Below, one piece after another: positions 32,960 to 50,456 of a stretch of 64,000 nucleotides of DNA (position 1 is its first letter; each line of letters begins with the position of its first letter). The notes beneath the pieces were generated by a model, which was not told the origin of the DNA, did no database searches, and saw only the letters and a program-made list of their open reading frames with translations. Made by a program: the position numbers and the translations under genes. The DNA is taken from positions 332,977 to 396,976 of the forward strand of contig NZ_JARNTW010000004.1 of assembly GCF_029433105.1 (NCBI RefSeq). Reading direction: 5' to 3'. The stretch is from Runella sp. MFBS21 (GTDB lineage: Bacteria > Bacteroidota > Bacteroidia > Cytophagales > Spirosomataceae).

Positions 32960-35900
32960 CTAACGGCTCGCAAGCGTACGTAGTTTGGTGTTTTGGTTGC
33001 GTATGCGCTGACACAGAATCTTAATGATATTTTTGAGTACTTCGCCTCGTTCATCCATAAGGTCATAAAAATCAGTTTGATCGATGCGGAAAAGGTGTAC
33101 ATCACTGAGGGCAGAAACCGTTGCTGAGCGGGGTTCTGCATCGAGCAGGGCTAGTTCGCCAAATACATCACCACGACCAAAGGTAGCCAATTGGACATGC
33201 CCGTCATAGATGCCTACTTCTCCGTCATAAATGACAAACATACTTGTTCCTAAGTCACCTTTCTGAAAAATCGTTTCTGCTTCTATGTAGCTTATTTCGC
33301 GCATGATAGGAGCAATACTACTTAGCACGTTTTCGGGAGTTTCGGCAAAAAGATCCGTGTTTTTCAGAACCATGACGCGTTCTGTAATCGAAACAGTAGC
33401 AGTGCTAGAAGAGTGACTCATGAGTTGTAAATCAGGATAATTAAACAATTGGTCGAGCGGCATTCCCCGTAAAGTGAGACGAATCGTCCAGTCGGTAAAA
33501 ACATGGGAGCCTTGTTGGAGAATATAATTTTTAATGGATTCTTTGGCCGTGAAACTACCCATTTGCGCATCAATGAGGCGGATTTTGTCGGCATCGGAGG
33601 CATTGTCGAGCAGCGCATACAAGCTGCCGTATACTTGGCGGGGTACGATATTTTCTAGTAATTCAAGCGAATTGGCACGTCGCTCACGTGAGCTATGCAG
33701 AATACTCGTTTGAGTACTTGAAATCGCTTCTGGGTCGTAGAGTTGTTTCAAAAATCCAAAGATACGCTGTACTATAAGGTCTTGCTCGTAGGTAAGACTA
33801 TTTTTGAGGTCTTGTTCGAGCGGTTCTATTTGGGCATGTAGAAGTCTTTGAGCTAAGATTAGTTCTTCGTGCAGGAGTTTTTTAAATAATTTTTCTTCCT
33901 TTTTGAAGGAATCAAAATGATGTAACGCTTGTAAGGCCGCCGTACGAACCGATACATTGGGGCGCTGCAACAATTCGATAAGTAACCCAAAAGCTTCGGG
34001 CGTTTTCATTTGGGAGCAGGCAGCTACCGCACGGCGGGCTGTAAGAGCATCTGCATCGCTAGAGACGCGTTTTTGGAGCAAAGGGAGAGATTCTTTTTCG
34101 AGCAAAGCTAGACTTCTAGAAGCAGCTCGCCAGTGGCGCTTTTCGGCTAAAAAGTCAATCAGTTTTTGTATCAACTCGGTATCCGGAAAAACACCTGCGG
34201 TATGAATAGCGGCATCAACCACTTCTTCATCGGAATGCTCAAAGGATAGCTTTACGAAGTCTTGAAAGGAATTTAGTTGCAGCGTTTTTACAATTTCAAG
34301 TACCGCCAACTGACTACTACTGTTGGGGTTTTGGCGCATTGCTTCAAGCGCGGTAAGGGCAAATTTATGGTTTGGATTAGGCTTGAGCAATCCCAAAATT
34401 GCTCCTTTGCGTACCATCAAATCGGGTTTATAGAGAAGTTCGATTCCATTTTTTTCGGATTCTTTACTCACAATACGCGCCGCTGTTTGTCGAATCGCTG
34501 GCGAAACATCCTCCAACGCCATTTGTTGTAATTGGCTATTTTTAATCACCAATCCCAACTTATCAATTGCTTCCAATGCACTCAATCTCACTTGGTCGTG
34601 AGGATACGTAAGTAGTTCACCGATAGAGGTCTGTAGTTTGTCGGAGGAGACTCCATGCATGCGATTGTGAGCGAGCCATTCGATAGCGTTTACTATTTCT
34701 TTGGGTTTGGTACTTTTGAGATTACGTAAAATAGCGTGAGTTGCTTCTTCAGGAATCGCCAAGTCTTCTACCGCTACAAAACGTTTGCTGAGAGCATCTT
34801 GGAGAGTGGAGACGTATTGGCGATAAGTACGGTACAAAAACCACAATGAGAATATAGCTCCCACGATGATTTCTTCTACCAAAAACCACTCGCTACCCTG
34901 CCACAAATGATGACTCAAATAAAGCATCAGTCCGCCGATACCAAGTCCTAAAGGTTCATAAAAGCCTTTGGCTAGAGTATGGCCTCTGAGGCGTTGGTGG
35001 GTAGAAAGAGGCTGAAACAATACCAAAAATACGGGATCAAACAATGCCCTACGTACTACTTCAAACCCCAAATACACAAAACAGTAAGCAATGAGTTGAA
35101 TAGACTGGTCGAAGTCTCCCAAAAACACCACCGTCAATCCCAAAGCCGCTCCTAGACCTCCGATGGGTAGTAAAGCGAGCACGCGGTTGATACCAAAATG
35201 CTCGATGGTCTGGCGCGACACTACAAGTTTCACAAACGTGGCGAGTAAGTAGGTAATTGCCAAAACACCGCCAAGGTATTTCATCACATCGGCTTGGCTG
35301 TGGAGCTTGTATTTGACATTAATAAAAAAGGCATATTCAACCCCTGTGGCCATAATAGCTACTGCCGTCAGACTCAGACACATCGCAAATATCAGTTCGC
35401 TACCTCCAAACAACTGCGTAATAAGTCGCGGCAGATGTTTGCGATGAAGAGGCTCAGAACCGTGTCCTGTAGACACATGGTGTGAACGAAAAGTCAGAAC
35501 CGCTGTGTACATCGCTGCCCAAAAGAACCCAAACGCCAAAAACAACAGTACTATTAGTTCAGTATGGCCATGAATGAGTACCGCAAGCATACCCCCGAGG
35601 GCTTTGGCGGGCATGTCTCCGGCACTGATTACGCCAAAAAGTCGTTTACTTTGGCGTACATCAAATACCACGGCCGATACACCCCAAAATTCGAGATTGG
35701 TCAGAAGATAAATGGCACGGTAGCCCACCATAATCGTCACCGCTGCCGCTATGGAATGTCCTACGTTGACCAGTATCAAAATGATAGCCGTGAGAACAAT
35801 CACCGACCAAAGTACCCTGATGACCAGTTTGTCGAGACGTAGATGATGCTCAAAATAAGTGTAAAGCTTCCCAATCAGCATCATTCCCGCTGCCGAAGCC

Positions 35901-36076
35901 ATGTAGGCAATAGGAAGGCTCGTTTCGGGGTGATTTTCGAGCAAAATAACATTGGCCGACACATAAATAAGCATGGTGCCGAACCCCAAGAAAAAATGAT
36001 GTAAAAAAAACAGTCCGACGGTTTTGACTTCATCGGCTCTGATTCCTAAGGAACGATACAGTGGGTGAGGCAACAT
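32960..36076 (-). CDS. NTT-type carrier fused to HEAT repeats and cNMP domain
   Basis: 1,038 residues in three parts. Residues about 1-430 form roughly 11-12 membrane helices resembling the nucleotide transporter/ADP-ATP carrier (NTT) family (FFLHHFFLGFGTMLIYVSAN at the start; a later VVRRALFDPVFLVLFQPL segment is typical of that family). About 450-790 are alpha-helical HEAT-like repeats (LLTYPHDQVRLSALEAIDKL). About 905-1030 is a cyclic-nucleotide-binding domain (TIFQKGDLGTSMFVIYDGEV, FGELALLDAEPRSATV with the phosphate-binding Arg). Such fusions are known in a few phyla. The adenylate cyclase at 47.1 kb could supply its ligand. Substrate unknown. Confidence 0.88.
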   Translation of the reverse strand: MLPHPLYRSLGIRADEVKTVGLFFLHHFFLGFGTMLIYVSANVILLENHPETSLPIAYMASAAGMMLIGKLYTYFEHHLRLDKLVIRVLWSVIVLTAIILILVNVGHSIAAAVTIMVGYRAIYLLTNLEFWGVSAVVFDVRQSKRLFGVISAGDMPAKALGGMLAVLIHGHTELIVLLFLAFGFFWAAMYTAVLTFRSHHVSTGHGSEPLHRKHLPRLITQLFGGSELIFAMCLSLTAVAIMATGVEYAFFINVKYKLHSQADVMKYLGGVLAITYLLATFVKLVVSRQTIEHFGINRVLALLPIGGLGAALGLTVVFLGDFDQSIQLIAYCFVYLGFEVVRRALFDPVFLVLFQPLSTHQRLRGHTLAKGFYEPLGLGIGGLMLYLSHHLWQGSEWFLVEEIIVGAIFSLWFLYRTYRQYVSTLQDALSKRFVAVEDLAIPEEATHAILRNLKSTKPKEIVNAIEWLAHNRMHGVSSDKLQTSIGELLTYPHDQVRLSALEAIDKLGLVIKNSQLQQMALEDVSPAIRQTAARIVSKESEKNGIELLYKPDLMVRKGAILGLLKPNPNHKFALTALEAMRQNPNSSSQLAVLEIVKTLQLNSFQDFVKLSFEHSDEEVVDAAIHTAGVFPDTELIQKLIDFLAEKRHWRAASRSLALLEKESLPLLQKRVSSDADALTARRAVAACSQMKTPEAFGLLIELLQRPNVSVRTAALQALHHFDSFKKEEKLFKKLLHEELILAQRLLHAQIEPLEQDLKNSLTYEQDLIVQRIFGFLKQLYDPEAISSTQTSILHSSRERRANSLELLENIVPRQVYGSLYALLDNASDADKIRLIDAQMGSFTAKESIKNYILQQGSHVFTDWTIRLTLRGMPLDQLFNYPDLQLMSHSSSTATVSITERVMVLKNTDLFAETPENVLSSIAPIMREISYIEAETIFQKGDLGTSMFVIYDGEVGIYDGHVQLATFGRGDVFGELALLDAEPRSATVSALSDVHLFRIDQTDFYDLMDERGEVLKNIIKILCQRIRNQNTKLRTLASR

Positions 36077-36244: not shown

Positions 36245-37633
36245 ATGAACTTTGTGTATCCTTTCTTGGTGGCGTTTTTTCTTCTGCCATTTGAGCAAAA
36301 ATTTCTGAGGCTCAAAGAAACTCTTCCACACTGGGATGAACGATTAAAATATGCTCGACTTATTGCATTTGGGTTGCTAGGTCTCCAAGTTGCTTTTAGT
36401 ATCAAATGGTTGGTTCCACCCATTTTTTTTGGATTATTGGCGATGGCGGCTGTACCAGCCTATTTGCTTCGCTATCACACTCCCAACGCCCGTTTGTTAC
36501 TTTGGATGATTGGCCCTTTTGGGATTGTATACTTGATTGATAATCTTTTCAAATATTGGACACCCAAATTTTACAAATCGCACGAAGAAATCTTTGACTC
36601 CGCTACAGGTATGGCGCTACTTTCGATGTTTGTGTTTGCATTGATGGCGCGCAACCAACAAAAAAGCTTTGATAAAGCCCTCAATGAAGAACGCCTCAAA
36701 AGAGAACAGGAAGAAGAGGCTAATCGTATTTTGGAAGCTAAAAAGCTAGATTTGGAGTCGCAGGTGGCTGAGCGAACGGCTGAAATTTTAAAACAAAAGG
36801 AAGAACTCCAACATGCCCTCGACAATCTGAAAGCGACCCAAGAACAGTTGATTCAATCAGAAAAACTGGCCTCTCTGGGCGAACTTACGGCGGGAATTGC
36901 CCACGAAATCCAGAATCCGTTGAATTTTGTTAACAATTTTTCTGATGTATCAGTTGAGTTGTTAGAAGAGCTAGAAGAAGAAAGAAAAAAAGACGCCACG
37001 GAGCGAGATAGTGAGCTGGAGGAAGAAATTTTAAATGATTTGATTCAAAATTTACAAAAAATCAACCATCATGGACGCCGAGCCGCAAGTATTGTATCGG
37101 GGATGCTGCAACATTCGAGAGCAAGTACGGGCAAAAAAGAAATCATAGATATCAATGCTTTGGCAGACGAATATATGCGGCTTAGTTATCATGGATTAAG
37201 AGCGAAGGACAAGTCTTTCAACGCCAACATGGTCACGGAGTTTGATGCTACCCTGCCAAAACTAGAAGTAATCCCGCAAGATTTGGGACGTGTTTTCTTG
37301 AATTTAATCAACAATGCTTTTTATGCAGTATATCAGCATTCGCTTCGGCCCGAGATAGCAGGTAGCGGCTATCAACCTACGGTGTGGGTCAAAACAAAAT
37401 GGACGGGTGAGGCCGCCGAAATTTGTATTGAAGACAATGGCATGGGTATACCTGACGAAGTAAAATCTAAAATTTTTCAACCTTTCTTTACAACCAAGCC
37501 TACCGGGCAAGGGACAGGCCTTGGGTTATCGCTGGCGTATGATATTGTTACGAAAGGTCATGGCGGTACTATTGAATTGGAAAGTGAGGAAGGAAAAGGT
37601 ACTAAATTTATTATTAATTTACCGATCAATTAG
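36245..37633 (+). CDS. Membrane sensor histidine kinase (tandem copy 1)
   Basis: 462 residues. About five membrane helices in residues 1-135 with no large extracellular domain, then a charged coiled coil (about 135-205), then HisKA and HATPase domains. H-box [17 protein letters not shown] with His220; N-box LINNAFYAVYQH; G-boxes DNGMGIPDEVK and [15 protein letters not shown]. First of three tandem paralogues whose kinase halves are nearly alike but whose sensors differ. No receiver domain is fused or adjacent. Divergent from the NTT/HEAT gene. Confidence 0.93.
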   Translation: MNFVYPFLVAFFLLPFEQKFLRLKETLPHWDERLKYARLIAFGLLGLQVAFSIKWLVPPIFFGLLAMAAVPAYLLRYHTPNARLLLWMIGPFGIVYLIDNLFKYWTPKFYKSHEEIFDSATGMALLSMFVFALMARNQQKSFDKALNEERLKREQEEEANRILEAKKLDLESQVAERTAEILKQKEELQHALDNLKATQEQLIQSEKLASLGELTAGIAHEIQNPLNFVNNFSDVSVELLEELEEERKKDATERDSELEEEILNDLIQNLQKINHHGRRAASIVSGMLQHSRASTGKKEIIDINALADEYMRLSYHGLRAKDKSFNANMVTEFDATLPKLEVIPQDLGRVFLNLINNAFYAVYQHSLRPEIAGSGYQPTVWVKTKWTGEAAEICIEDNGMGIPDEVKSKIFQPFFTTKPTGQGTGLGLSLAYDIVTKGHGGTIELESEEGKGTKFIINLPIN

Positions 37634-37651
37634 TTTTCAAAACCTTATTGC

Positions 37652-39856
37652 ATGAAGTATTTTATTTTACTTTTAGTGGTTTTGTGCAGCTTTGGTGGCT
37701 GGGCACAAAAAAAGTTAGAACCATTGGATGAATCAGAGCAATCCGGTACCACTTTAGCAAAACATTGGAAGTGGCACCGTGGCGACAATCCTGCTTGGGC
37801 AAACCCCACCTTGGTTGATTCTACTTGGGAGGCTTTTTCGCCTACCACATCTATTCACAAATTGCTCTCACTTAGAGAGGCCCAAATCGCCTGGTTTAGG
37901 CGTCCTATCAAGATTACGCAGGCGCTGGTTAATAAGCCTTTAGCGCTGAGTATCGATCAAGTAGGAGCGTCGGAGATTTATATAGATGGCAAACTCCTGA
38001 AAAAGCTAGGAGTAGTCAGTATCGACTCCAAAAAAGAAGTGACACATTCGGTAGAGAGATTTATCCCTTTTAGCCTGCCCGATACCAATCTTCACGTGAT
38101 TGCGGTGAGGTTTTCTTACACCAAATCTAACTTCTACTATCCTGGTACCAATCAAGATACGTTCGAGCTTAAGTTTGACCAAGTAAGCAATATTGGGGAT
38201 ATTGTGTACAACAGTGGTATACGTAAGTCAGAGATATTTTATTTGGCGATGGGGATTTTCTTGGTGTTTGCCGTTCTCCATTTTTCTTTTTACGCCTCTA
38301 ATCGTGCCCGCAAGGTAAGCCTTAGCTTGGGTTTTACGATGTTGACTTTTGCCCTGGCGTTTTTGCTGGAGAATCTCGAACATCATCAATCAAACTCCTC
38401 TTTAAGACAAGTTTATCAACTTGTGGAGTTGATAGCATTCTATGCTGGATTTATACTGATTAATACATCGCTTTATTTGTACCTAAGCCAGCCTTTTAGG
38501 GTATTTTTCTATCTTCAACTAGGGCTCATAGTAGGGAGTGTGATATGCTTAATATTTGGTTATGGGATGCCGATTGCCGTGGAAGTATGGCTTGCCCCTT
38601 TACTGATTTTTGTGGATTTTATAAGGGTTAGTATCCTAGCCGACAGGCGTAGAGATCCCAATGCAAAAGTACCTATTTATTCACTAATAATAGGGGCTGC
38701 CTTTTTTGCATTGGCTATTATGATTGTGATAGCTGGTAGCATGATGGTCGATAATTATAACTACACCAAAAGCTCAGGTTTTCAAATGATAATGATCATA
38801 GCAATCGTACTTTGGGTACTCATGTTTTTTAGTATTCCAGTCGGGTTGTCATTTTCATTGGTAAAGGAGTACTCTCGCACACATCAAGCACTACGCAAAA
38901 AACTTCAAGAAGTAGAAAAACTCTCCGCCCAAAACCTTGCTCATGAGCAAGAAAAACAGCAAATGTTAGCGGCTCAAAACGAAATACTTGAACGACAAGT
39001 AGCAGAGCGTACCGCCGAACTACATGAGTCGTTGGAAGAGCTAAAAGCGGCGCAGGCACAATTGATACAGTCAGAAAAATTGGCTTCTTTGGGTGAACTG
39101 ACAGCGGGGATTGCGCACGAAATTCAGAATCCTTTGAATTTTGTTAATAACTTCTCTGAGCTTAGTATAGAGCTGCTAGATGAGTTGCAGGAAGAAAAAC
39201 GTAGAAGCACCCTTGCTATAGAAGAAGATTCTCTGGAAGAAGAAATTTTTGGTGACTTGGTGCAAAATTTGAGTAAAATCAGTCATCACGGCAAACGGGC
39301 AAGTAGTATTGTCAAAGGAATGCTCGAACACTCTCGGAATCATTCTGGCACCAAAGAAATGACCGATTTGAACAACTTGACTGATGAATATCTTCGACTG
39401 GCTTATCATGGAATGAGAGCCAAAGACAAAGCTTTTAATGCTGACTTTAAAGCTAATTTAGACCCTTTGATTCCCAAAATAGAAGTAGTAGGGCAAGATA
39501 TAGGGCGGGTGATATTGAATCTAACCAACAACGCTTTTTATGCTGTACATCAGAAAGCCCTGCAAAATTTGCCTTCTTATAAGCCATTGGTTCAAGTATC
39601 TACGCAGCTGGTGAGAGATTCGGACGAAGAGCAGTGGATAGAAGTTCGGGTCAAAGACAACGGGACGGGAATTCCTGACGCCGTAAAGAGTAAAATCTTC
39701 CAGCCATTCTTCACCACCAAACCTACCGGCCAAGGCACCGGGCTGGGCTTGAGCCTTGCCTATGATATTATAACCAAAGGGCATGGGGGAGAAATGACGG
39801 TAGAATCTCAAGCAGGAGAAGGTACTGAATTTATCTTTAGGTTACCAGTATCATAA
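37652..39856 (+). CDS. 7TM sensor histidine kinase (tandem copy 2)
   Basis: 734 residues. Signal peptide ([18 protein letters not shown]), an extracellular beta-sandwich resembling galactose-binding jelly rolls ([28 protein letters not shown]; about residues 25-185), seven membrane helices (about 195-420, 7TMR-DISM type), a coiled coil, then the kinase. His489 in [50 protein letters not shown]. It begins 18 bp after copy 1 and is followed 32 bp later by copy 3, so the three are probably one operon. Extracellular ligand unknown; the fold suggests a sugar or other small molecule. Confidence 0.94.
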
Positions 39857-39888
39857 TGGACTAAAATACGCGAAAACAGCCTTCTACA

Positions 39889-42078
39889 ATGAAAAAATAC
39901 GGTCTATTCATCGTTTTGCTTTTGTACGTCAGTCAGGTTTTGGGGCAGAGTATTATTAGTATTGACTCTATTCCATTGAAAGGATTAGTCCTTGAAAAAA
40001 ACTGGCGATGGAGCGCAGGCGATAGTCCCGAATGGGCCAATCCCGAATTTGACGATAGCGCATGGAAAGAAGTGAATCCTACCCAAGACCTAGCCAATAT
40101 TCCTAATCTTACTACCAAGGGAATAGGATGGTTTAGGGCTACTTTGGAGTTTTCGCCAGTGGTAGCGCAGCAGCTCAGTACCTTACAAATCAGTCAAAGC
40201 GTAGCTTCGGAGATATACATAAATGGACTTTTGGCGCGTAAAATCGGTGTGGTCAGCACTAATCCAGAGCAAGTGAAAGCAGTCAATTTGTTTAACCACT
40301 ACAACATTGGCTTGCCTTATTCTGTAAGTTATCCTTATGTTCAGATTTCAATTCGGGTGGCTTACGAACAAAACCCCTTTTACAATCGCGTAGGTTTCAA
40401 CCAAAGCCACTGTTTTAAAGCTACCGTCGTTGCTACCGAACATGCCAGTACCATTAGCCGAGCCATACGTCAGCAGACTTATTACGGGTGGTTTCAAGTA
40501 GGGGTGTTTTTTATTCTTACCTTTCTGCATTTGTCGTTTTTCTCGCTTTATCGCACGCAGCGTGCCAATCTCTATTTTTCACTGACTACCTTGTGGTTGG
40601 GAATTGCGTTTTTGTGTATACCGCTTACGTTAGATTATTTCGAAAACTTGACGGAGTATTTTCTGGCCGAATTTGTGCAGACAATTGCATTCCCTATTGC
40701 GTACTTGTTTTTGATACGGGCTATATATGAAATCTATCATCAACCTACGGGAGTACTTTATTGGATGATAGTGGTGTTCGGTATATTGGTTGTTATTTCA
40801 CTCTTCACCCCCTATTCGTTAGGATCGGTATGGGCTGAGCTAGGTACCGAACTCCTCATGACTGCCGAAGTAATCAGAGTCACGGCTTTGGCTTTGCGGC
40901 GGCATTTGCCAGGCGCAAGGCTTATCATGATTGGGATGGGGGTGTCTTTGGTAATGTTTCTGTTTTTTTACGTAGATATTTTGCTCAAAAACTATGGGTT
41001 TAGCCCCATTATTGAGAGTGGATTGGGGGGCGTAATTACTTATCAAATTGCGGTATTGTGTGTGCCTTTGTCGATTTCGCTGTATTTGGCGATTAGTTTT
41101 TCTAAAACCAATAAAGAACTCATCGAAAAACTCCAAGAAAACAATGAACTCAGTAAGCAAAACCTGCGGCAAGAGCAAGAAAAACAACAGCTTTTGGCAG
41201 CTCAAAACGAAACTTTAGAGCGCCAAGTAAAAGAGCGAACGGCGCAGCTGGAGCAATCTTTAGAAGAACTAAAAGCGACTCAAAATCAGCTCATTCAGAA
41301 AGAAAAAATGGCAAGTTTAGGGGAGCTTACGGCTGGGATTGCGCACGAAATCCAGAATCCACTCAATTTTGTGAATAATTTCTCGGAGGTAAGCATGGAA
41401 CTCGCCCAAGAACTCGCCGAGGAACTCGACCGCGACCCCATAGACAAAGAATTGCTGAAAGAATTGGCGGGTGATTTGACCCAAAACCAACAAAAAATTA
41501 ACCATCACGGAAAGCGTGCGAGTAGTATCGTGAAAGGAATGTTGGAGCACTCGCGCAACAATACCGGAGAGATGCAGCTTACAGACCTCAACGCGCTCGC
41601 CGACGAGTACCTCCGCCTGAGCTATCATGGACTACGAGCCAAAGACAAAACCTTCAATGCAGATTTTAAGGGGGAGTTTGACGAGAAGCTACCCAAATTG
41701 AAAGTCATGCCACAAGAACTTGGGCGAGTACTACTGAATCTTCTCAACAATGCCTTCTATGCTGTTCATGAAAAAGAACGCCTAAGAATCCCTAATTATC
41801 AGCCTTTAGTGACAGTTTCGACGCATTATCGAGAAGATGATAAGCAGGGAGCTTGGGCCGAAATCAGAGTCAAAGACAACGGAACTGGGATTCCTGAAGC
41901 AATAAGAACGAAGATTTTTCAACCCTTTTTTACCACTAAACCCACTGGCGAAGGTACGGGGTTGGGACTATCTTTGAGTTATGATATTGTTACAAAAGGT
42001 CATGCTGGAACCTTCGTGATAGAAAGTGAAGAAGGAGAAGGCACCGAATTTTTTATTTCATTGCCTTATCGTGGATAA
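39889..42078 (+). CDS. 7TM sensor histidine kinase (tandem copy 3)
   Basis: 729 residues, same architecture as copy 2: signal peptide (about 1-19), jelly-roll domain (WRWSAGDSPEWANPEFDDSA, ASEIYINGLLARKIG), seven helices, coiled coil with the shared QEQEKQQLLAAQNETLERQV, and kinase with His486 ([18 protein letters not shown]), [23 protein letters not shown] and [15 protein letters not shown]. The sensor halves of copies 2 and 3 are related but well diverged. The kinase halves are more conserved, suggesting shared downstream partners. No response regulator is present within several kb. Confidence 0.94.
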   Translation: MKKYGLFIVLLLYVSQVLGQSIISIDSIPLKGLVLEKNWRWSAGDSPEWANPEFDDSAWKEVNPTQDLANIPNLTTKGIGWFRATLEFSPVVAQQLSTLQISQSVASEIYINGLLARKIGVVSTNPEQVKAVNLFNHYNIGLPYSVSYPYVQISIRVAYEQNPFYNRVGFNQSHCFKATVVATEHASTISRAIRQQTYYGWFQVGVFFILTFLHLSFFSLYRTQRANLYFSLTTLWLGIAFLCIPLTLDYFENLTEYFLAEFVQTIAFPIAYLFLIRAIYEIYHQPTGVLYWMIVVFGILVVISLFTPYSLGSVWAELGTELLMTAEVIRVTALALRRHLPGARLIMIGMGVSLVMFLFFYVDILLKNYGFSPIIESGLGGVITYQIAVLCVPLSISLYLAISFSKTNKELIEKLQENNELSKQNLRQEQEKQQLLAAQNETLERQVKERTAQLEQSLEELKATQNQLIQKEKMASLGELTAGIAHEIQNPLNFVNNFSEVSMELAQELAEELDRDPIDKELLKELAGDLTQNQQKINHHGKRASSIVKGMLEHSRNNTGEMQLTDLNALADEYLRLSYHGLRAKDKTFNADFKGEFDEKLPKLKVMPQELGRVLLNLLNNAFYAVHEKERLRIPNYQPLVTVSTHYREDDKQGAWAEIRVKDNGTGIPEAIRTKIFQPFFTTKPTGEGTGLGLSLSYDIVTKGHAGTFVIESEEGEGTEFFISLPYRG

Positions 42079-42203: not shown

Positions 42204-43457
42204 ATGTTATTACTCTTCTTGGCATTGTTGGTGGGGGCATCAATAATTTTTGCCATATGGTATTATTTCATACTTAAAAAGGCTACTTCTAAAGCCGTTT
42301 TGATTGCCCAAGCCCCACCCCAAAGTTGGTCTGACGAATTCTTGGAAAATAAACGCCTACATACTGATCTTGTTGCTGACGAAGTGGTCAAGAGTATCAT
42401 GAAGCAAGGGGAGAAAAATCATGTCAACAGGTTGTTTGGGATGATTGTGAACGATAATGATACGCTTCCTGAGGAGCTTCCACACCAACTCAAAAAATAC
42501 TTTGAAGATACGGCTCAACTTCCTCCTTGGGCTGATGAAGATATGATCAAACTCGGACAGCAAATTTATATTCGTCATGGAGTTTTGATTAGTTTGTTGT
42601 TGTCATTTAAGTCTCTTCCAGAATGTTATGCTTGTGCCAAGGGTGCAATGGTTCTTTTTCATACGGCTCGTCTCAATGAGCAGCATGGCTCAATGGATAC
42701 TTACTCACGCCGGATTGCCGAAACTGCCCAATTTGTCTTGTATGCCATGTCGCCAGGGGGCTTATCGCCTGAGGGACGGGGCATGCGAGCTATTCAAAAA
42801 GTAAGATTGATTCATGCCGTCATTCGATTTTATTTACATCAAAAAGATTGGGACGTGGCTCAGTTTGGAGAGCCTATCAACCAAGAAGATATGGCGGGGA
42901 CATTGATGTCATTTTCGGCTCTTGTCCTAGAAGGGCTTGAACTGATAAACGTCGAACTGACTACTACAGAAAAAGAGGCATACATTCATTGCTGGCGAGT
43001 GATTGGGCATTTGATGGGTCTTGATGATGATTTGATTCCTATCAATGCTGCCGATGCATTGGCGCTCGGTCATCGGATTTTAGATCGCCAGATTGCTCCT
43101 AGCGAGCAAGGGAGATCTTTGATGGAGGCTTTGTTGAGATTTCAGGAAAAAACATCACCTGTAGCGATAGACGCTGATACTACCCAACAAATGATGCGAT
43201 TTATGATGGGGGATAAAATTGCAGATATGTTAGGAGTACCTCCCGCAGATAAACAATCAGTGGAGCAGCTAGCCAATAAGGTCCGTTTTTTTGTGGATGT
43301 AGAAGAGGTATTAGATCGTACTATACTGTTAGCGATATTGGTTCAAGCTGTCAGTAAAATCATGCTTCAACGAATGATAGACTTGATGGATAAAAACCAA
43401 ATTATCAATTTTTATATTCCAGAATCTTTGCAGCGAGATTGGGGAGTTTCTGCTTAA
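42204..43457 (+). CDS. MpaB/rubber-oxygenase family protein (DUF2236)
   Basis: 417 residues with an N-terminal membrane anchor (about 3-24). The rest is the mostly helical Lcp/MpaB catalytic domain: ADEDMIKLGQQIYIRHGVLI, AETAQFVLYAMSPGG, the core KVRLIHAVIRFYLHQ (His ligand region) and EPINQEDMAGTLMSFSALVL, then CWRVIGHLMGLDDDLIP. Characterised relatives bind haem and cleave isoprenoid double bonds: Lcp acts on rubber, and fungal MpaB on the farnesyl chain of a mycophenolic-acid precursor. Substrate here unknown. It lies 0.8 kb from a terpene-cyclase-like gene, with an HD gene on the other strand between them. Confidence 0.87.
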   Translation: MLLLFLALLVGASIIFAIWYYFILKKATSKAVLIAQAPPQSWSDEFLENKRLHTDLVADEVVKSIMKQGEKNHVNRLFGMIVNDNDTLPEELPHQLKKYFEDTAQLPPWADEDMIKLGQQIYIRHGVLISLLLSFKSLPECYACAKGAMVLFHTARLNEQHGSMDTYSRRIAETAQFVLYAMSPGGLSPEGRGMRAIQKVRLIHAVIRFYLHQKDWDVAQFGEPINQEDMAGTLMSFSALVLEGLELINVELTTTEKEAYIHCWRVIGHLMGLDDDLIPINAADALALGHRILDRQIAPSEQGRSLMEALLRFQEKTSPVAIDADTTQQMMRFMMGDKIADMLGVPPADKQSVEQLANKVRFFVDVEEVLDRTILLAILVQAVSKIMLQRMIDLMDKNQIINFYIPESLQRDWGVSA

Positions 43458-43522
43458 ACAAATGCGCTAATTTGTAAACGAGCACAGTTGTTTAAGCTTG
43501 CTAAAAGTAAGAGTGAATGTGG

Positions 43523-44110
43523 CTAATAATGTTTAGTAATTTCACATAACTCGTCAAGATATTGTTGCTTTTTGGCTTTACGCCAATATTGAGCAGATGC
43601 AGTCCAGTACTGGTGAGACGACAAAAACTTGACCTGAATTTGGTTCCAAGTTTCGATGTTTGGTACCATCTCTCTTTCTCGAAGCTCTTCGTAAAGACTA
43701 TGAGCGATAGGCCAAAAATCATCCCGGCCCAGATAGTCAAGGTCAGCATCTGCGATGATTTGTTCGAGATGAGTTAAGGGCGTCTGAGGAATTTTGGTAG
43801 CCATAATCATCCCACAAATTTTTTCGATTTGTGGATTTGAATAACCAAATGAAGGCAAGGTGAGATTGGCGATTCGGCAGCTTTCCTCTTCATGACCTCT
43901 ATAAGTAGTAATAAAACCTAAGTCATGATAAAAAGCAGCAGTTTTGAGCAAAATAAGTGGCTCTTCTTCTTCAATACCTTCGGACGAAGCAATCTTCAAA
44001 ACCGCTTCAGCTACATCAATAGTGTGGTGATACCCATGATAGGTAAGTGTAGGAGAGAGGTTTTTTTTTAGTTTTTCGAGTATGTAATTTTCGACAGCTA
44101 GAATATCCAT
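43523..44110 (-). CDS. HD-domain metal-dependent phosphohydrolase
   Basis: 195 residues, all helical. HD-superfamily residues: YHGYHHTIDV (His28/29), AAFYHDLGF (His62-Asp63), GHEEES and IIADADLDYLG (Asp near 140). Relatives include nucleotide phosphohydrolases and c-di-nucleotide or pyrophosphate hydrolases; the substrate cannot be told. It is convergent with the MpaB-like gene and divergent from the terpene-cyclase-like gene, sharing their intergenic region. Confidence 0.9.
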   Translation of the reverse strand: MDILAVENYILEKLKKNLSPTLTYHGYHHTIDVAEAVLKIASSEGIEEEEPLILLKTAAFYHDLGFITTYRGHEEESCRIANLTLPSFGYSNPQIEKICGMIMATKIPQTPLTHLEQIIADADLDYLGRDDFWPIAHSLYEELREREMVPNIETWNQIQVKFLSSHQYWTASAQYWRKAKKQQYLDELCEITKHY

Positions 44111-44234
44111 TTGGATAGATTAATTATGGTACAAATTTTAAGAAAAATTTGATATTACCAATCATAGTTTCAAAGTTGGCAATCAGAGGAGCACTGCAAC
44201 TAATCAAACGCACTTATGACCTAAACCTATACAG

Positions 44235-44921
44235 ATGAATACCATCAATTATTTTTTGGAACATGTACTCCACATCAATTTAGGGGATTATCCGCCTATT
44301 CAAGTTTTTTTTCTCACATTGGGTACCTTTTTTTGGATAGTTGTTTATAGAGATACCATCCTAAACATGAGACGGTATAAACTCGTTGAGATTCCCATGA
44401 TTGTGGCTGCGTTGGATCTTTCTTGGGAGTTTTGTTGGGGGTTTTTACTCGAAAATGACTACGCTCCCTTTTTTAAATGGGCTTGTATAGTTTGGTTTTT
44501 TATGGATGCCTACATCAATTACTATACTCTCAAACATGGCACCAAACTAGTCACTAATTCTTGGATTAAGAAAAATTATCTTCTGATTTATCTATTTATT
44601 CTGATTGGTGGGGGTTTTATTACTTATTTTATGAGATATACACACCAAGATGATGGTATCGGCGCTATTTCAGCTTTCTTTATCAACCTCGTCATCTCTA
44701 GTACCTATATTTATCAATTACTCACCTACCCTCACTACCGTTATCAAGAATTTAGTTATCGTATTGCATGGGCAAAGTTTCTCGGAACTGGGTTTATTGC
44801 GTTAGGTTGTGCCCTACATTACCCCGACAATCATTTTTTGCATACTATGTCGGGCATGGTTTTCATCATGGACATGGTGTATATTTATTTGTTTAAAACC
44901 TACGTCCCAGAAAATCAATGA
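44235..44921 (+). CDS. Seven-helix protein, candidate Pyr4/PaxB-type terpene cyclase
   Basis: 228 residues with seven predicted membrane helices (about 22-45, 50-71, 78-98, 114-133, 142-163, 176-196, 202-221). Length and topology match the membrane-bound terpene cyclases of fungal meroterpenoid pathways (Pyr4, PaxB) and their bacterial relatives. The two acidic residues known to be essential in Pyr4 (Glu63 and Asp218) have counterparts at the expected places: Glu65 in helix 2 (LDLSWEFCWGF) and Asp213 in helix 7 (FIMDMVYIY). A further Asp91 lies in helix 3 (FFMDAYINYY). The stop overlaps the following FAD oxidoreductase gene by 4 bp, so the two are translationally coupled. The family call rests on topology and motif position only; it could be another small 7TM family. 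Confidence 0.6.
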   Translation: MNTINYFLEHVLHINLGDYPPIQVFFLTLGTFFWIVVYRDTILNMRRYKLVEIPMIVAALDLSWEFCWGFLLENDYAPFFKWACIVWFFMDAYINYYTLKHGTKLVTNSWIKKNYLLIYLFILIGGGFITYFMRYTHQDDGIGAISAFFINLVISSTYIYQLLTYPHYRYQEFSYRIAWAKFLGTGFIALGCALHYPDNHFLHTMSGMVFIMDMVYIYLFKTYVPENQ

Positions 44922-47098
44922 AAAAGAAAAAAGTTGCCGTTGTTGGAGGAGGATTAGGTTCTCTATCAACGGTCTATCATCTCATGATGCAGCCTGAGGC
45001 TAAAGATTTGTACGAAATCACGGTGTATCAAGCAGGCTGGCGATTGGGAGGTAAAGGAGCAAGCGGTGTCAATCCAGAAATGGGATTTAGGGTAGAAGAG
45101 CATGGGGTTCATTTTTGGTTTGGATTTTATGAAAATGCTTTTCGAATGATAAAAAATGTGTACGCAAAATTGGCACGTCCCAAAGATGCTCCATTGGCTA
45201 CCTTCGAAGAAGCTTTTAAACCGCAGCCTAACGTTGACTTGTCTCAAAAAATCAACAATCAGTGGGTAGATTGGGTTTTGGATTTGCCCCCTATATCGGG
45301 TACTTTGGGAGATGGAAAATTCCCAAACCCTGTGGAGTTAATATTTGAAATTATATTTCATAAACTTGCCGACGAATTTAAGGAAGGTATCGTAAAAGTA
45401 GAATTAGGATTTTGGGATTCTATTATCAGTTTTTTTCGAAAACTATTTAAACAAAAAAGAGAGCATCCTCGCCTTCAAAACTCCTTGGATGGATATATTC
45501 AGAAAGTGGAGGAAGGTCTTCTTACTAAAACTTTTAGCCATGCCGTTGAAAAACATTTAAGAGTGATAGGGACGGTACTGAGCAATAAGCAAACGCATCA
45601 TGCAGAGCATGTAGAGGCGCATATTGAGCATTTAGAATCAGTACACCACTGGATTTGGGATTCGATAGGGCATTTGATTGAAAAATTTCCTCATCTGTTG
45701 CGTATTTGGTGCATTATTGACTTTGCCATTGTGGCTACCAAAGGCATCTTCAAAGATGGAGTAATAAAGATGGAGCACGGTAAAATGACCTTAGACTTCA
45801 GTGTGATTAATGATTATGACCTCAAAGAATGGCTGATTATACACGGGGCTGACAAACATTTTATTTATGAATTTCCCGCTATCAAATTGATGTACGATGG
45901 GCCATTTGCTTTTTATAAAGGGGCTGTTTCGGCTCCCAACGTAGAAGCGGGGACTGCCCTCAACATCCTTTTTAGGTGGGTACTTACAAGCAAAGAAAAT
46001 TTTATATGGCGAATGCAGGCAGGAATGGGAGATACCATCTTTGCCCCTTTATATCTATGGCTCAAAAAAGAGTTTCCTGAAAATGTTCGCTTTCAGTTTT
46101 TTGAGAAAATTTCAAATCTGGTATTGTCAGAAGATAAAAGGTATGTAGCTGAAATTGAGGTAGAAAAGCAAGTGAAGTTGCAGGAAGGTTTAACCGAATA
46201 CAACCCTTTGATAGAGGTAAAAGGGCTACCAAGTTGGCCTTCTCGACCACTGTATGAGCAATTGGACCCATCACAAGCACAGATATTACAAAAGCAGAAT
46301 ATTGACCTAAGTAGCGATTGGACAGGCTGGAAAGGTGAAAAAATTATCAAAAAATGGGGTGAAGATTTTGACGAAGTGGTGATTGGAGCGTCGGTAGCAT
46401 CGCTTCCGTATTTTTGTAGTGAGCTTATTGAAGCCAACAAAGCTTGGGCTAATATGCTTGATAAAGTGGGTACGGTACAAACGCAAGCGTTTCAGATTTG
46501 GCTCACCAAAAGCCCTGAACAACTGGGGGCGCATCCCCAAAAAGTGTTATCAACTTATGTAGAGCCACTTGATACTTTTGCAGAAATGAATCAAGTATTG
46601 AGTCGAGAGGTTTGGGAGGGTGCCTATGTTCCTAAGTATTTGTTTTATGTGTGTGGCGCATTTGCAGAGTCTGAATTGATACCTCCGTTGGATTTAAGTT
46701 ATTTTCCTGAAAGTCAACGCCAAAAAGTTTATGACAGTATGAAGAGTTTTATTGAAAAAGACTTACGTCATATCCTACCCGGGGCTTTTGATGAAGCAGG
46801 ACAATTTGATTGGAATATTTTATTCGACCCCTACAATGGGATAGGAGAGGAGCGTCTTAGGAATCAGTATTGGAGGGTCAATATTGATTCCTCAGAGCGC
46901 TATGTATATTCCTTAAAAGGCTCTTCTAAGCACCGTTTGCAGGCTCATGAAAGTGGCTTTACCAATGTAGTGCTTACAGGAGACTGGATTCAGAATGGCC
47001 TTAATACTGGATTTGTAGAAGGAGCCGTGGTGTCAGGGATTTTGGCAGCGAGAGCCGTTTCAAAAAATGATACAATAGACCTATTTTTACCGTGGTAG
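44918..47098 (+). CDS. FAD-dependent amine-oxidase/desaturase-like oxidoreductase
   Basis: 726 residues, no signal peptide. N-terminal Rossmann dinucleotide site VAVVGGGLGSLSTVYHLM, followed by the GWRLGGKGAS second glycine motif and EEHGVHFWFGFY. The C-terminal FAD motif is VVLTGDWIQNGLNTGFVEGA with SGILAAR. This is the architecture of phytoene desaturase, squalene-dehydroxylase and amine oxidase relatives (NAD_binding_8/Amino_oxidase). A long central insertion rich in His (about 150-290) is not explained. Start codon overlaps the stop of the terpene-cyclase-like gene. It could oxidise or desaturate an isoprenoid, but the substrate is unknown. Confidence 0.85.
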   Translation: MKKKKVAVVGGGLGSLSTVYHLMMQPEAKDLYEITVYQAGWRLGGKGASGVNPEMGFRVEEHGVHFWFGFYENAFRMIKNVYAKLARPKDAPLATFEEAFKPQPNVDLSQKINNQWVDWVLDLPPISGTLGDGKFPNPVELIFEIIFHKLADEFKEGIVKVELGFWDSIISFFRKLFKQKREHPRLQNSLDGYIQKVEEGLLTKTFSHAVEKHLRVIGTVLSNKQTHHAEHVEAHIEHLESVHHWIWDSIGHLIEKFPHLLRIWCIIDFAIVATKGIFKDGVIKMEHGKMTLDFSVINDYDLKEWLIIHGADKHFIYEFPAIKLMYDGPFAFYKGAVSAPNVEAGTALNILFRWVLTSKENFIWRMQAGMGDTIFAPLYLWLKKEFPENVRFQFFEKISNLVLSEDKRYVAEIEVEKQVKLQEGLTEYNPLIEVKGLPSWPSRPLYEQLDPSQAQILQKQNIDLSSDWTGWKGEKIIKKWGEDFDEVVIGASVASLPYFCSELIEANKAWANMLDKVGTVQTQAFQIWLTKSPEQLGAHPQKVLSTYVEPLDTFAEMNQVLSREVWEGAYVPKYLFYVCGAFAESELIPPLDLSYFPESQRQKVYDSMKSFIEKDLRHILPGAFDEAGQFDWNILFDPYNGIGEERLRNQYWRVNIDSSERYVYSLKGSSKHRLQAHESGFTNVVLTGDWIQNGLNTGFVEGAVVSGILAARAVSKNDTIDLFLPW

Positions 47099-47106
47099 TC
47101 GGAGAT

Positions 47107-49002
47107 ATGAAAAAACGAATTCTACTTTTATTGGCATTTCTTCTTATAAAAACGCTGTCTTGGGTAGAGGCGCAAGTGGTGGTTGACAACCAGTGGAAGT
47201 ATCGTGTGGTAGAAGCAGATATGCAAGTATTACCAATGAAAAACGAGTTTGTTTATAAGGATAGTATGGTGGTTAGGGGGATATATGATGCACAATTTTT
47301 ACCTTTTGAAAGTGCTTTTATTAAAGGACAAGAAACCTACAATTGGCTAAAACTAAAAGTCACCAATCAGACTACTATTGCTTCGCCTTTCTATATCGGA
47401 ACCAATCGATTCGAATTCCTGACATGTTGGGTTAAGACCGATTCTACCTTGATAGGGCCTCTTAAAAGTGGTATTAAAATAGCGGATGATGAGAAAGCCC
47501 TACCTGTATCAGGTCTTGCTTTTTTTGAATTTGAGTGTAAACCCAACCAAACGGTGACGATTTATCTCAAAGCTGTGAACAAAGACATGCCTATCACGCC
47601 GCAGATGAGGGTTCCGCTGATTGTGACCACTAAAAAATACTTTCAGAACAACTATGAAGGCCCAAGCGACTTTACTTTTATGTATTTAGGCGCTACGATT
47701 ATCATGTTGATTTCTAATATCCTGCTATTCTTTTTTACCCGAATAAAAGCCTATTTTTATTATTGTGGAGAGGTCATAAGTGGGATTTTTTTTATCATAG
47801 GTATTACTCCTCAATTTGCGTATCCACTATATGGACATAGCGATGTAAATCGCGCTCCTATTTCTATTTTTGGGACTTTTGTAGCTATATTTTATATTTT
47901 ACTTGCCCAAAATATTCTAGAAATTAAAATATATTACCCCAGAGTAAACAGGTTCTTGAATTATGTTTTGGGGGCGTATTTGTTTTCGGTTGTTTCCAAT
48001 TTTTTTCCAAGTTTAGAACTCATCAGGGCAACAATCAATTACTTGGCGTTTTTTATAGCTTATCCTACCATTTTTGTGGTCTGTGTGTTGATGTCTTTTC
48101 GAAAACATTTGCCCAGCATTTTGTTTTTTGTAGCTACCTTTTTTTATGTAACAGGTACGATATTGATGGTGTTGCAAATTTTGGAAATCATCCCGCTGTT
48201 TTTGTTTGGTATTACGGCGACTACCATGTCTCAGATTGCAACTATTCTTGAAAACTCGCTCTATTCTTTAAGTTTGGGGGCGCGTATCAATGAAGTACGT
48301 CATCTTCGTACTCAAGAGGCTATCGAGCGACTGAAAGCGCAGCAACTATTGGCCGAAAAAGAGCAAACTAGAAAATTATTGTTAAATACGCTGCCAGAAA
48401 GTACAGTAGATGAACTCATCAAAAACGGAGCGGTAAAACCTCGATTGTATGATGCTACTACGATTCTTTTTATGGATATAGTAGATTTTACGAAGCATAC
48501 AGAGCAGATGTCGCCAGAAGATTTAATCAAGGAGCTGGATTACTATTATAAAAATTACGACGAAATAGTAGTAAAATATAAACTTGAGAAAATAAAGACG
48601 ATTGGCGATGCCTATCTCGCTATCTGTGGCATTCCCGAGCCCAATGAGCGCCATGCTCATCAAGTGGTGGAAGCTGCCCATGAAATATTACGTTTTGTGA
48701 ACCAAGAAAAAGAGCAAAGATTATTACAAAATAGGCGAGCATTTGAGGTGCGAGTCGGGATTCATAGCGGGCCTACTATTGCTGGGGTAGTAGGTAAGTC
48801 TAAGTTTGCGTATGATATTTGGGGTGATACTGTCAATACCGCTGCAAGAATGGAGCAAAATGGTAAGGCAAATCGAATTAATGTTTCGGAAGCAACTTAT
48901 GCCCTGTTAAAAGACGATTTTAAGTTTGAATACCGTGGTAAAATCGAAGCTAAAAACAAGGGAAAAATTGATATGTATTTTGTTGAAATTCAAACAGTAT
49001 GA
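47107..49002 (+). CDS. Membrane class III adenylate cyclase with 7TM receptor domain
   Basis: 631 residues from the ATG at 47107, which starts a signal peptide (KKRILLLLAFLLIKTLSW). Next come an extracellular 7TMR-DISM-type beta domain (about 20-190), seven helices (about 195-390), a coiled coil, and the class III catalytic domain from about 440. Metal-binding Asp457 (LFMDIVDF) and Asp501 (KTIGDAYL), ATP-selecting Lys497, and YDIWGDTVNTAARME with Asp plus the transition-state Asn/Arg are all present, so it should make cAMP. It starts 8 bp after the FAD gene, so the three genes form one operon. It overlaps the convergent MocR gene by 13 bp. Confidence 0.92.
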   Translation: MKKRILLLLAFLLIKTLSWVEAQVVVDNQWKYRVVEADMQVLPMKNEFVYKDSMVVRGIYDAQFLPFESAFIKGQETYNWLKLKVTNQTTIASPFYIGTNRFEFLTCWVKTDSTLIGPLKSGIKIADDEKALPVSGLAFFEFECKPNQTVTIYLKAVNKDMPITPQMRVPLIVTTKKYFQNNYEGPSDFTFMYLGATIIMLISNILLFFFTRIKAYFYYCGEVISGIFFIIGITPQFAYPLYGHSDVNRAPISIFGTFVAIFYILLAQNILEIKIYYPRVNRFLNYVLGAYLFSVVSNFFPSLELIRATINYLAFFIAYPTIFVVCVLMSFRKHLPSILFFVATFFYVTGTILMVLQILEIIPLFLFGITATTMSQIATILENSLYSLSLGARINEVRHLRTQEAIERLKAQQLLAEKEQTRKLLLNTLPESTVDELIKNGAVKPRLYDATTILFMDIVDFTKHTEQMSPEDLIKELDYYYKNYDEIVVKYKLEKIKTIGDAYLAICGIPEPNERHAHQVVEAAHEILRFVNQEKEQRLLQNRRAFEVRVGIHSGPTIAGVVGKSKFAYDIWGDTVNTAARMEQNGKANRINVSEATYALLKDDFKFEYRGKIEAKNKGKIDMYFVEIQTV

Positions 49003-50456
49003 AGTATCTGACGTAATATCTCCACGCATTGCTCCAGCTCAGTAATCGTAGAAGAGGCAAACCCCAAACGTGTATGATGAGTCAAAGGAGCGTGAAATTT
49101 ACCGTCTGCAAAAAACAAACCTTTTTTGAGGGCTTCAGTAGCGAGCATTTCTAGGTCGATACTTGGGTCGAAATGTGTCCAGACGGCCATACCTCCATCG
49201 GGAATTTGAAATTGGAGATAGGAGCTTAAATAAGTCGAAAGTAACTCACAAAATGCGTCGCGCCGGATGCGGTATTCGCGTAGGGATTTGCGGATATGTC
49301 GCTGAATGACCCCGTTTTGGAGTAGTTCGGCGAAGGAATTTTCGAGCATCAAATCGCCTTGTCGGTCGATGATGCGTCTCAGTTGGGATAAATGATGAAT
49401 TACGTTTTCGGAACCTACCAGGTAGCCTACTCGAAACGCGGGCGAAATCGCTTTTGTAAAAGAACCACAGTACAAGACCATCCCTTGGCGGTCGGCACTT
49501 GCCAAGGGGAGGAGTGGTTGACTTAAATAATGAAAATCGTAGTCATAATCATCCTCAAACACGATAAATTTGTAGGCTTCTGCCAAGTGAAGCAGCTGAA
49601 GTCGGCGATCGGCGCGTAGCGCCACAGTGGTAGGGTAATGGTGATGTGAAGTCACATATACCATCCGAATCGGCTGCTGTTGGCATAGTTTTTCAAGGGC
49701 TTCGATGACCAATCCGTGGGCATCTACGGGGATTTTGATGAGTTCGGCTCCTGCTTGTAAAAAACTCATGTTGGCGCCTCCCCAGCTCAATTCGCCTACT
49801 ACGACTTTGTCGCCTTTTTTGAGTAAACCTGTACTTGCTAGATAAAGCCCCATCACCGTTCCACGAGTGATAAGGATATTGTCGGCGGTGGTTTTGAGGC
49901 CACGGGTTTCGTTGAGATAAGCCGACAGCTCTCGTCGCAGCCATGCCGAGCCTTTGGTATCGTTGTAGCCTAGTTTCACATAAGGGTTGCCCTGTAGAAG
50001 TTGTGAACGATACGCCCTCGACAGTTCGGCTAAGGGTGCTAGACGCGGGTCTGGAAAGCCATCGTCGAGGTGGAGAGAAGCCGATGCCCCTAATACGCCG
50101 CGAGCTAAGTGAGGGGCTGCTTCTATCCTAAAACCAGCCGTTTTGACGGGATTGGCGTTTGAATTTTGGTTTTTATCTAAAGGTGTGGGGTGGATTTCTG
50201 GTAAATTTTCTACTACATAGGTGCCGCTTCCAGTGCGAGTTTCGAGCCATCCTTGTACTAGCAGTTCGTCGTAAGCCTGAACAACAGTCTGTCGGTGGAT
50301 ATTCAATAGCGCGGCCATTTGTCGCGAACCTAGTAGCTTTTGGCCTGCTCGTAATTCTCCTCCTCTGATGAGAACCATGAGCTGATTGGCGAGCTGTAAA
50401 TAGGCAGCTTGCTTGGCGGTTTTGTCAAGGTGAAGGAGGGATTGATAAGCTACCAT
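48990..50456 (-). CDS. MocR/PdxR-like GntR regulator with aminotransferase domain
   Basis: 488 residues. N-terminal winged-helix GntR domain (LLGSRQMAALLNIHRQTVVQ, then ETRTGSGTYVVENLP; about 10-80), a linker, then a fold-type I aminotransferase domain with the PLP lysine Lys335 in CGSFTKAISPAFRVGYL. MocR proteins sense PLP or amino-compound adducts. This one is divergent from a Pyridox_ox_2-family gene, and the shared intergenic region has AAAGTGGAC direct repeats, the motif described for PdxR. So it probably controls vitamin-B6-related genes. The 3' end overlaps the adenylate cyclase gene. Confidence 0.9.
   Translation of the reverse strand: MVAYQSLLHLDKTAKQAAYLQLANQLMVLIRGGELRAGQKLLGSRQMAALLNIHRQTVVQAYDELLVQGWLETRTGSGTYVVENLPEIHPTPLDKNQNSNANPVKTAGFRIEAAPHLARGVLGASASLHLDDGFPDPRLAPLAELSRAYRSQLLQGNPYVKLGYNDTKGSAWLRRELSAYLNETRGLKTTADNILITRGTVMGLYLASTGLLKKGDKVVVGELSWGGANMSFLQAGAELIKIPVDAHGLVIEALEKLCQQQPIRMVYVTSHHHYPTTVALRADRRLQLLHLAEAYKFIVFEDDYDYDFHYLSQPLLPLASADRQGMVLYCGSFTKAISPAFRVGYLVGSENVIHHLSQLRRIIDRQGDLMLENSFAELLQNGVIQRHIRKSLREYRIRRDAFCELLSTYLSSYLQFQIPDGGMAVWTHFDPSIDLEMLATEALKKGLFFADGKFHAPLTHHTRLGFASSTITELEQCVEILRQILHTV

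Follow-up and report, generated by a model that had tools for sequence, protein, structure and literature searches.

The 64,000-nucleotide stretch of Runella sp. MFBS21 DNA analysed here (the window, part of a 7.9 Mb genome) encodes a Pyr4-like seven-helix membrane protein from what is a signalling clade of its family. The association of these proteins with oxidases and signal-transduction proteins in many Bacteroidota suggests an undescribed signalling system based on an isoprenoid-derived compound, and we judge it somewhat probable that the locus represents one form of a signalling module of Bacteroidota in which an oxidase and the Pyr4-type protein convert a membrane isoprenoid that a neighbouring signalling protein reads. 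In such a module the oxidase (of the MpaB type, a flavin adenine dinucleotide (FAD) desaturase-like protein, or both as in the window) would act on a membrane isoprenoid, which the Pyr4-type protein would protonate and rearrange, with Glu65 as the acid and Asp213 assisting. The protein encoded by the adjacent gene would then sense, within the membrane, either the product or the occupied enzyme. In the window the reader would be a 7TMR-DISM adenylyl cyclase, with histidine kinases encoded upstream, and the output would be cyclic AMP (cAMP), possibly acting on a protein with HEAT repeats and a cyclic nucleotide (cNMP)-binding domain. The case is built from the families of the proteins, their conserved residues and gene linkage, the swapping of output domains and the Pyr4-kinase fusions; from these we infer active enzymes, an isoprenoid substrate (a quinone side chain, a carotenoid or a squalene-like chain) and a product that serves as the ligand.

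The Pyr4-like gene (44235-44921, plus strand) encodes 228 amino acids, and its product passes the Pfam family PF25129 (Pyr4-TMTC) with an E-value of 9.4e-13 and 48.8 bits against a cut-off of 27. An AlphaFold2 model shows seven long helices with a mean pLDDT of 84.7; no sequence match to a solved structure of any Pyr4-family protein was found. The family, the seven helices and the placing of Glu65 in helix 2 and Asp213 in helix 7 had been proposed in an initial annotation made from the sequence alone, and all of these points stand. Across clade B, the branch of the family that includes the window protein (see below), 74 rows were compared, namely the 73 counted in the linkage analysis plus locus L097 (loci are designated by L numbers and genomes by G numbers). 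Glu65, Asp91 and Tyr38 are kept in all 74 rows and Asp213 in 73; the sole exception is the linked Pyr4 protein of L097 (9671-10348), in which Asn replaces the helix-7 Asp. Position 61 is Asn in 72 rows and Asp in two, the window protein having Asp61, and position 216 is Tyr in 57 rows, as in the window protein, and Phe in 17. Residues E60, D214, Y33, N56 and Y217 of the bacterial cyclase DmtA1 are essential or important, and its N56A variant has poor activity, according to the available part of PMC6173783. Matched by spacing rather than by alignment, these five residues correspond to E65, D213, Y38, D61 and Y216 of the window protein, so that the Asn found four residues before the Glu of DmtA1 is D61 here. 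The conserved active sites favour working enzymes, without proving turnover.

The linkage of clade-B Pyr4 genes to signalling genes is strongly supported. A gene run was defined as genes on the same strand with gaps of no more than 300 bp, reaching at most four genes to each side, and a histidine kinase, SpoIIE phosphatase, class III cyclase or Ser/Thr kinase was encoded in the run, or fused to the Pyr4 protein, in 60 of 73 clade-B rows. An oxidase (MpaB, either of two FAD types, or a cytochrome P450) was encoded in the run in 63 rows, and both kinds of partner were present in 53. Among representatives with less than 70% identity the corresponding fractions were 31/39, 30/39 and 24/39, whereas control genes from the same loci, at least six genes away, gave 4/104 for signalling and 0/104 for oxidases. 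The signalling contrast has a Fisher p of 1e-19 with rows treated as independent; the signalling hidden Markov models were built from these Pyr4 loci and were applied to the control genes as well. Five identical duplicates (L119, L121, L127, L129 and L139), the fragment L048, and L097 were excluded before the count of 73. Locus L097 was dropped by the open reading frame filter and would count as linked, with a 580-type FAD gene upstream and a six-transmembrane-helix (6TM) kinase gene downstream. The 13 rows that have no signalling gene in the run weigh against the favoured explanation.

The outputs beside Pyr4 interchange, and include histidine kinases, SpoIIE phosphatases, class III cyclases and multidomain Ser/Thr-kinase proteins. 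The genes around Pyr4 follow a pattern in which MpaB or a FAD protein of about 580 amino acids comes before, and the 726-residue FAD type (window, L093, L095, L099 and L103) or a P450 (L094, where it lies between Pyr4 and SpoIIE) comes after, followed by the output. In 40 of the 73 rows the protein encoded directly after Pyr4 includes a membrane sensor domain, of the 6TM kind in 33 and DISM in seven. A 7TMR-DISM receptor replaces the 6TM domain in the window, L093, L095, L100, L104 and L110-L112, and a multidomain Ser/Thr kinase, with no membrane sensor domain recognised in Pfam, replaces it in L039, L046, L083, L106, L108, L138, L157-L159 and L161. The initial annotation had supposed that Pyr4, MpaB and FAD genes act together as a linked set. 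The three are indeed conserved neighbours across Bacteroidota, but MpaB and FAD genes mostly alternate, and the gene runs of the other four loci with a window-type FAD gene contain no recognised MpaB. The window MpaB is absent from the count for its own run, because an opposite-strand HD gene breaks the run.

The same receptor domain can be joined to different outputs. Within one 6TM subgroup, proteins with three different outputs share a homologous N-terminal domain, with BLAST E-values of 4e-18 (cyclase and histidine kinase), 7e-12 (histidine kinase and SpoIIE) and 8e-10 (cyclase and SpoIIE), and in a second subgroup SpoIIE and histidine kinase proteins match at 1e-30; these values were computed against 16 sequences only, and BLAST did not join the two subgroups to each other at useful E-values. 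A 6TM profile found 52 places in 42 of 291 genomes of the window's order. The seven best all adjoin Pyr4, and below these the context was viewed only for G654. The profile had no match in the window genome (G000), which has 7TMR-DISM instead. In their 6TM part these receptors are similar to the membrane domains found in Rv1625c and human adenylyl cyclases; a structure model of a 6TM cyclase was weak overall (mean pLDDT 59.2) and usable only over its first 200 or so residues.

A precedent for a lipophilic ligand comes from the 6TM domain of CqsS, which, when put on the Rv1625c cyclase, made it respond to CAI-1, a lipophilic signal; Bacteroidetes are represented in the CqsS-type cluster (both from the accessible portion of PMC4821796; see also PMC12414865). 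By analogy, the adjoining receptor would have an isoprenoid ligand produced by the oxidase and the Pyr4-type protein. No prenyltransferase was recognised among the scanned window genes, as the initial annotation had also reported for the adjacent ones, while oxidases do adjoin Pyr4. This lack fits a suggestion from fungal genome mining, in the part of PMC11109268 that was available, that Pyr4 clusters without a prenyltransferase may accept a ubiquitous polyprenyl molecule. A broader version of the favoured explanation, which we put forward only tentatively, is that there is a Bacteroidota terpenoid signal: a cyclase and a haem or flavin oxidase would make an oxygen-dependent, ring-closed isoprenoid, and a dedicated receptor (6TM, 7TMR-DISM or kinase-fused cyclase) would pass the signal to a phosphorelay, SpoIIE or cAMP. 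The system would be hormone-like, and enzyme and receptor could be one protein.

Two loci, both from one genus, encode Pyr4 and a histidine kinase as a single polypeptide. By Pfam, the 829-residue protein of L150 has Pyr4-TMTC at 67-248, HisKA at 590-655 and HATPase_c at 710-820, and the 818-residue protein of L151 has the same domains at 24-209, 598-662 and 708-817. In L162 MpaB and Pyr4 are followed by a kinase that shares 41% identity with the fusion partner; a simple hydropathy scan found no hydrophobic segment in that kinase, the scan being insensitive enough to find only four of the seven helices in L151. Because of the fusions and the L162 kinase there is room for a model in which the Pyr4-like protein does the sensing itself, as an ex-cyclase whose prenyl pocket binds an isoprenoid and signals to the attached output, with MpaB and FAD proteins supplying or clearing the ligand. 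The Ser/Thr-kinase outputs that have no recognised membrane sensor, a fold match of the Pyr4-like protein to the KDEL receptor, and the replacement of Asp213 by Asn in L097 all point in the same direction. The near-invariance of Glu65, Asp91 and Asp213, however, is as a working active site would show, more than half of the genes right after Pyr4 encode a membrane sensor of their own, and in L042 a homologue of the fusion partner (45% identical) has two hydrophobic segments. We regard the receptor model as unlikely, although more probable than the other rivals, and continue to favour a module in which the Pyr4-type protein is an enzyme and the neighbouring protein reads its product.

PF25129 matched in 24 of the 395 genomes sampled from the phylum, among them the window genome, and a profile of six window-like proteins matched in 39 of 291 genomes of the window's order and in 18 of the 123 genomes searched in another order. 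When named genomes were scanned, 21 loci were found, including ones in Algoriphagus, Jiulongibacter, Lacihabitans, Saprospiraceae, Flavobacteriales and Candidatus Kapaibacterium, and G655, from the same family as the window genome, encodes a Pyr4 protein identical to that of Jiulongibacter sediminis. A first genome scan using the window Pyr4 protein alone found no relative, and a search of plasmids for relatives gave no match. The distribution is patchy, since the three sampled same-genus relatives of the window strain have no Pyr4-like protein. The 291-genome search gave 43 non-window places, of which 40 were used (G566:C160, G566:C39 and G627 were left out). The 123-genome search gave 25, of which five were already in the set and 18 were added (G682:C175 and G677 were left out); one of the 18, L152, has no Pyr4 open reading frame. 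In a maximum-likelihood tree of 77 proteins, rooted at the midpoint and built without L120 and the later loci L150-L167, a fully supported branch parts clade A (22 rows) from clade B (55 rows, including the window); 17 further loci from the range L150-L167 were put in clade B by profile score rather than by the tree.

Clade A presents a different picture, with a signalling neighbour in only one of 22 rows and with neighbours typical of meroterpenoid work, namely UbiA beside L036 and L038 and a flavin monooxygenase (FMO) beside L038. In five clade-A rows (L033, L037, L040, L041 and L043) the catalytic Glu has become Ala, and these proteins have probably lost their function or acquired a new one. 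In the small genomes of L028, L029, L031, L032 and L034, a DUF2499/DUF3593 protein (Pfam scan of L029) is encoded beside an FMO-like gene near the clade-A Pyr4. In the clade-B locus L092 (9719-13101), Pyr4 is followed by the gene for a thiamine pyrophosphate (TPP) enzyme identified by Pfam and then by one for a 304-residue membrane-like protein without a Pfam match; this may be a conventional biosynthetic cluster. In L101, L102, L105 and L107, all from one genus, Pyr4 and a FAD gene adjoin an opposite-strand gene of 485-486 codons (photolyase-related, DPRP, by Pfam in L102), with a 296-residue histidine kinase next. A gene for about 255 amino acids lies near the Pyr4-FAD pair in L099 (8704-9480) and L103 (6778-7539), and in L099 its product has a weak, below-cut-off match to acetoacetate decarboxylase.

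The initial annotation took the three window genes for a cluster modifying a prenyl chain. The protein families and the linkage uphold that reading in part, but the cluster was drawn too small and further genes in and around it were missed: the HD gene at 43523-44110, the 7TMR-DISM cyclase at 47092-49002, three kinases and the cNMP-binding protein. Most clade-B relatives adjoin or are fused to signal-transduction proteins, which makes a role in signalling more likely than a meroterpenoid cluster of the usual kind, and a meroterpenoid cluster alone was dropped as the principal interpretation given these conserved neighbours. A modified form of the idea is a conventional terpenoid or lipid biosynthesis cluster, with the signalling genes beside it governing its expression or activity. 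Biosynthetic clusters frequently include local regulators, and a GntR/aminotransferase-type regulator gene found in the window scan (48990-50456), presumably MocR-like, converges on the window cyclase gene; the clade-A neighbours UbiA and FMO and the TPP enzyme of L092 would also fit. Against this, the clade-B partners are receptors and output enzymes of four kinds, in L150 and L151 a kinase is fused to Pyr4 itself (no systematic search for DNA-binding regulators was made), and the gene sets seem too small for a full pathway. A regulated biosynthetic cluster is a doubtful account of the locus, and the isoprenoid-reading module remains the one we prefer.

The window MpaB gene (42204-43457, plus strand) encodes a putative haem oxygenase of the MpaB/rubber-oxygenase type (417 amino acids) that passes PF09995 (MPAB_Lcp_cat) with an E-value of 7.6e-25 and 88.7 bits against a cut-off of 23. 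Its family profile matched rubber oxygenase structures 5o1m (6e-40) and 5o1l (8e-40) over profile positions 22-321 of 388, and the MpaB/Lcp assignment made from the sequence was therefore sound. Arg170, Thr174 and His204 are invariant in 17 of 17 sequences and align with Arg164, Thr168 and His198 of 5o1l, which we take to be the haem-site residues in Lcp. The positions of Glu148 and Lys167, which we take as markers of Lcp proper, are Gly and Glu in the window protein and so are not kept. The profile of Pyr4-linked MpaB proteins found 22 places of at least 390 bits in the 291 genomes; the next score below these is 335 bits, where a shorter type begins. Thirteen of the 22 lie beside Pyr4 (with one gene between in the window and G633), three go with DUF6989, two are fused and four have no partner seen. 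A shorter MpaB relative, of a type widespread in the order, is also present in the window genome (L149, G000 C12:616222-617178), where no Pyr4 or signalling gene was recognised nearby. In L140 (4087-9165) and L141 (6070-11160), MpaB-domain proteins of 1692-1696 amino acids are followed by a 7TMR-DISM histidine kinase; by Pfam, the L140 fusion combines caspase C14, GDSL lipase, MpaB and DUF5995.

The slot of Pyr4 can itself be filled differently. A DUF6989 membrane protein of about 220 amino acids is encoded between MpaB and the output in L142 (6565-7224), L144 (8135-8803) and L145 (6238-6915), and L083 has both DUF6989 (8922-9584) and Pyr4. Homology of DUF6989 to Pyr4 was sought with hhalign and not found (probability 0.4%). 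DUF6989 is possibly another membrane isoprenoid enzyme, and no paper of the open-access literature searched names it.

The FAD-dependent oxidoreductase of the window (FADL; 44918-47098, plus strand, 726 amino acids) passes only NAD_binding_8 and Amino_oxidase in Pfam. The initial annotation likened it to CrtI/HpnE, and this was not sustained: it scores 34.0 bits against an HpnE cut-off of 283.05 and lies under every NCBIfam cut-off shown. Neither it nor its family has a PDB sequence match. Five places in the 291 genomes score at least 1228 bits for FADL and all adjoin Pyr4; the next best scores 661 bits, matches occur in 15 genomes, and context was viewed for places above 661 bits. The FAD partner of about 580 amino acids in other loci is closer to the HpnE type (92.4 bits for L088). 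Homology of the two FAD types was not upheld, the alignment being limited to the N-terminal FAD region.

The membership of these oxidases in haem or flavin families could also be explained by a redox or oxygen sensor, in which the haem (MpaB) and FAD proteins relay electrons or oxygen status via the membrane protein to the output. That proposal leaves the conserved cyclase acids and the isoprenoid-acting enzyme families unexplained, and we consider it improbable. A stand-alone meroterpenoid-type cluster with signalling neighbours by chance, a reading helped by the action of Pyr4-family cyclases and flavin oxidases on prenyl chains elsewhere (available part of PMC13307353), is very unlikely given the conserved linkage to signalling genes, far above that of control genes, and the fusions.

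The coordinates of the three genes first proposed, including the 4-bp overlap of the Pyr4 and FAD reading frames, are as originally given, and 777 bp separate the MpaB stop from the Pyr4 start. This interval holds, on the minus strand, the gene for an HD-domain phosphohydrolase (43523-44110, 195 amino acids, Pfam HD 9.8e-08), a family also found in the Pyr4 loci L080, L081, L132 and L166. The end of the FAD gene is overlapped by the reading frame of the candidate reader, a 7TMR-DISM receptor fused to a class III adenylyl cyclase (47092-49002, plus strand, 636 amino acids, starting at GTG 47092 or ATG 47107), which matches Guanylate_cyc at 8.5e-56 (188.9 bits against 21.9) and 7TMR-DISM_7TM at 3.8e-17. 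It contains the class III catalytic stretches FMDIVDF, IKTIGDAY and WGDTVNTAAR, and is presumably specific for ATP rather than GTP.

Three plus-strand histidine kinase genes span 36245-42078, upstream of MpaB. The first (36245-37633, 462 amino acids) matches HATPase_c at 4.7e-24, with a HisKA score of 23.8 bits, under the cut-off of 26.9. The second (37652-39856, 734 amino acids) has HisKA and HATPase_c domains and is separated from its neighbours by 18 and 32 bp. The third (39889-42078, 729 amino acids) has the same two domains, ends 125 bp before MpaB, and has a 7TMR-DISM-like N-terminus that falls below the Pfam cut-off (25.7 bits against 29). On the minus strand at 32960-36076 lies the gene for a 1038-residue HEAT-repeat protein with a cNMP-binding domain (cNMP_binding 7.3e-20, HEAT_2 6.1e-16), a possible cAMP-responsive effector. 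Homologues were found in L084 (nearly full length, 25% identity), L130 (C-terminal half) and L131 (cNMP region only).

The bacterial Pyr4-like proteins described in the accessible passages of published papers are natural-product enzymes, while here a whole clade is tied to signal transduction, with kinase fusions. A 2026 JACS survey of bacterial Pyr4-like cyclases began with 1107 candidates and kept 264 for nearby terpenoid genes (PMC13307353). Signalling neighbours are not mentioned in the available part of that survey, and its filter could have removed signalling-linked loci. Among the open-access matches listed, judged by titles and the beginnings of abstracts, no description of such a module was found; most subscription papers and all preprints lie outside that search. 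If the product is the ligand, it would represent an isoprenoid signalling class of which no description was found in the literature searched. It would also supply natural ligand candidates for the adenylyl-cyclase-type 6TM receptor domains, of which Rv1625c is termed an orphan receptor in the portion of PMC4821796 at hand.

Several known systems resemble parts of the proposed module. With the Pyr4-family cyclases Pyr4, XiaE/XiaH, DmtA1 and ZigF, the window protein shares the Pfam family, seven helices, the Glu and Asp positions, DmtA1-like Tyr residues and oxidase partners; it differs in having no adjacent prenyltransferase or aromatic-core gene, and its clade is linked and fused to signalling outputs. 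With the MpaB/Lcp proteins (PF09995), the window oxygenase shares the family, the Arg, Thr and His residues and the alignment to 5o1l and 5o1m, but it departs from them at the Glu148 and Lys167 positions and in its Pyr4 and receptor neighbours. The window flavoprotein has the N-terminal FAD fold of HpnE and of phytoene and zeta-carotene desaturase-like proteins but falls below the NCBIfam cut-offs. The receptors of the window and its relatives are of the 7TMR-DISM and 6TM membrane adenylyl cyclase kinds, for which no terpene-cyclase partner was found among the literature matches listed. Many of the relatives, like the CqsA/CqsS pairs, in which CqsA is the synthase, have a small-molecule enzyme gene beside that of a 6TM sensor fused to its output. 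They differ from those pairs in that the enzyme families here are isoprenoid-acting and the outputs include SpoIIE and cyclases, and the window receptor is a 7TMR-DISM protein.

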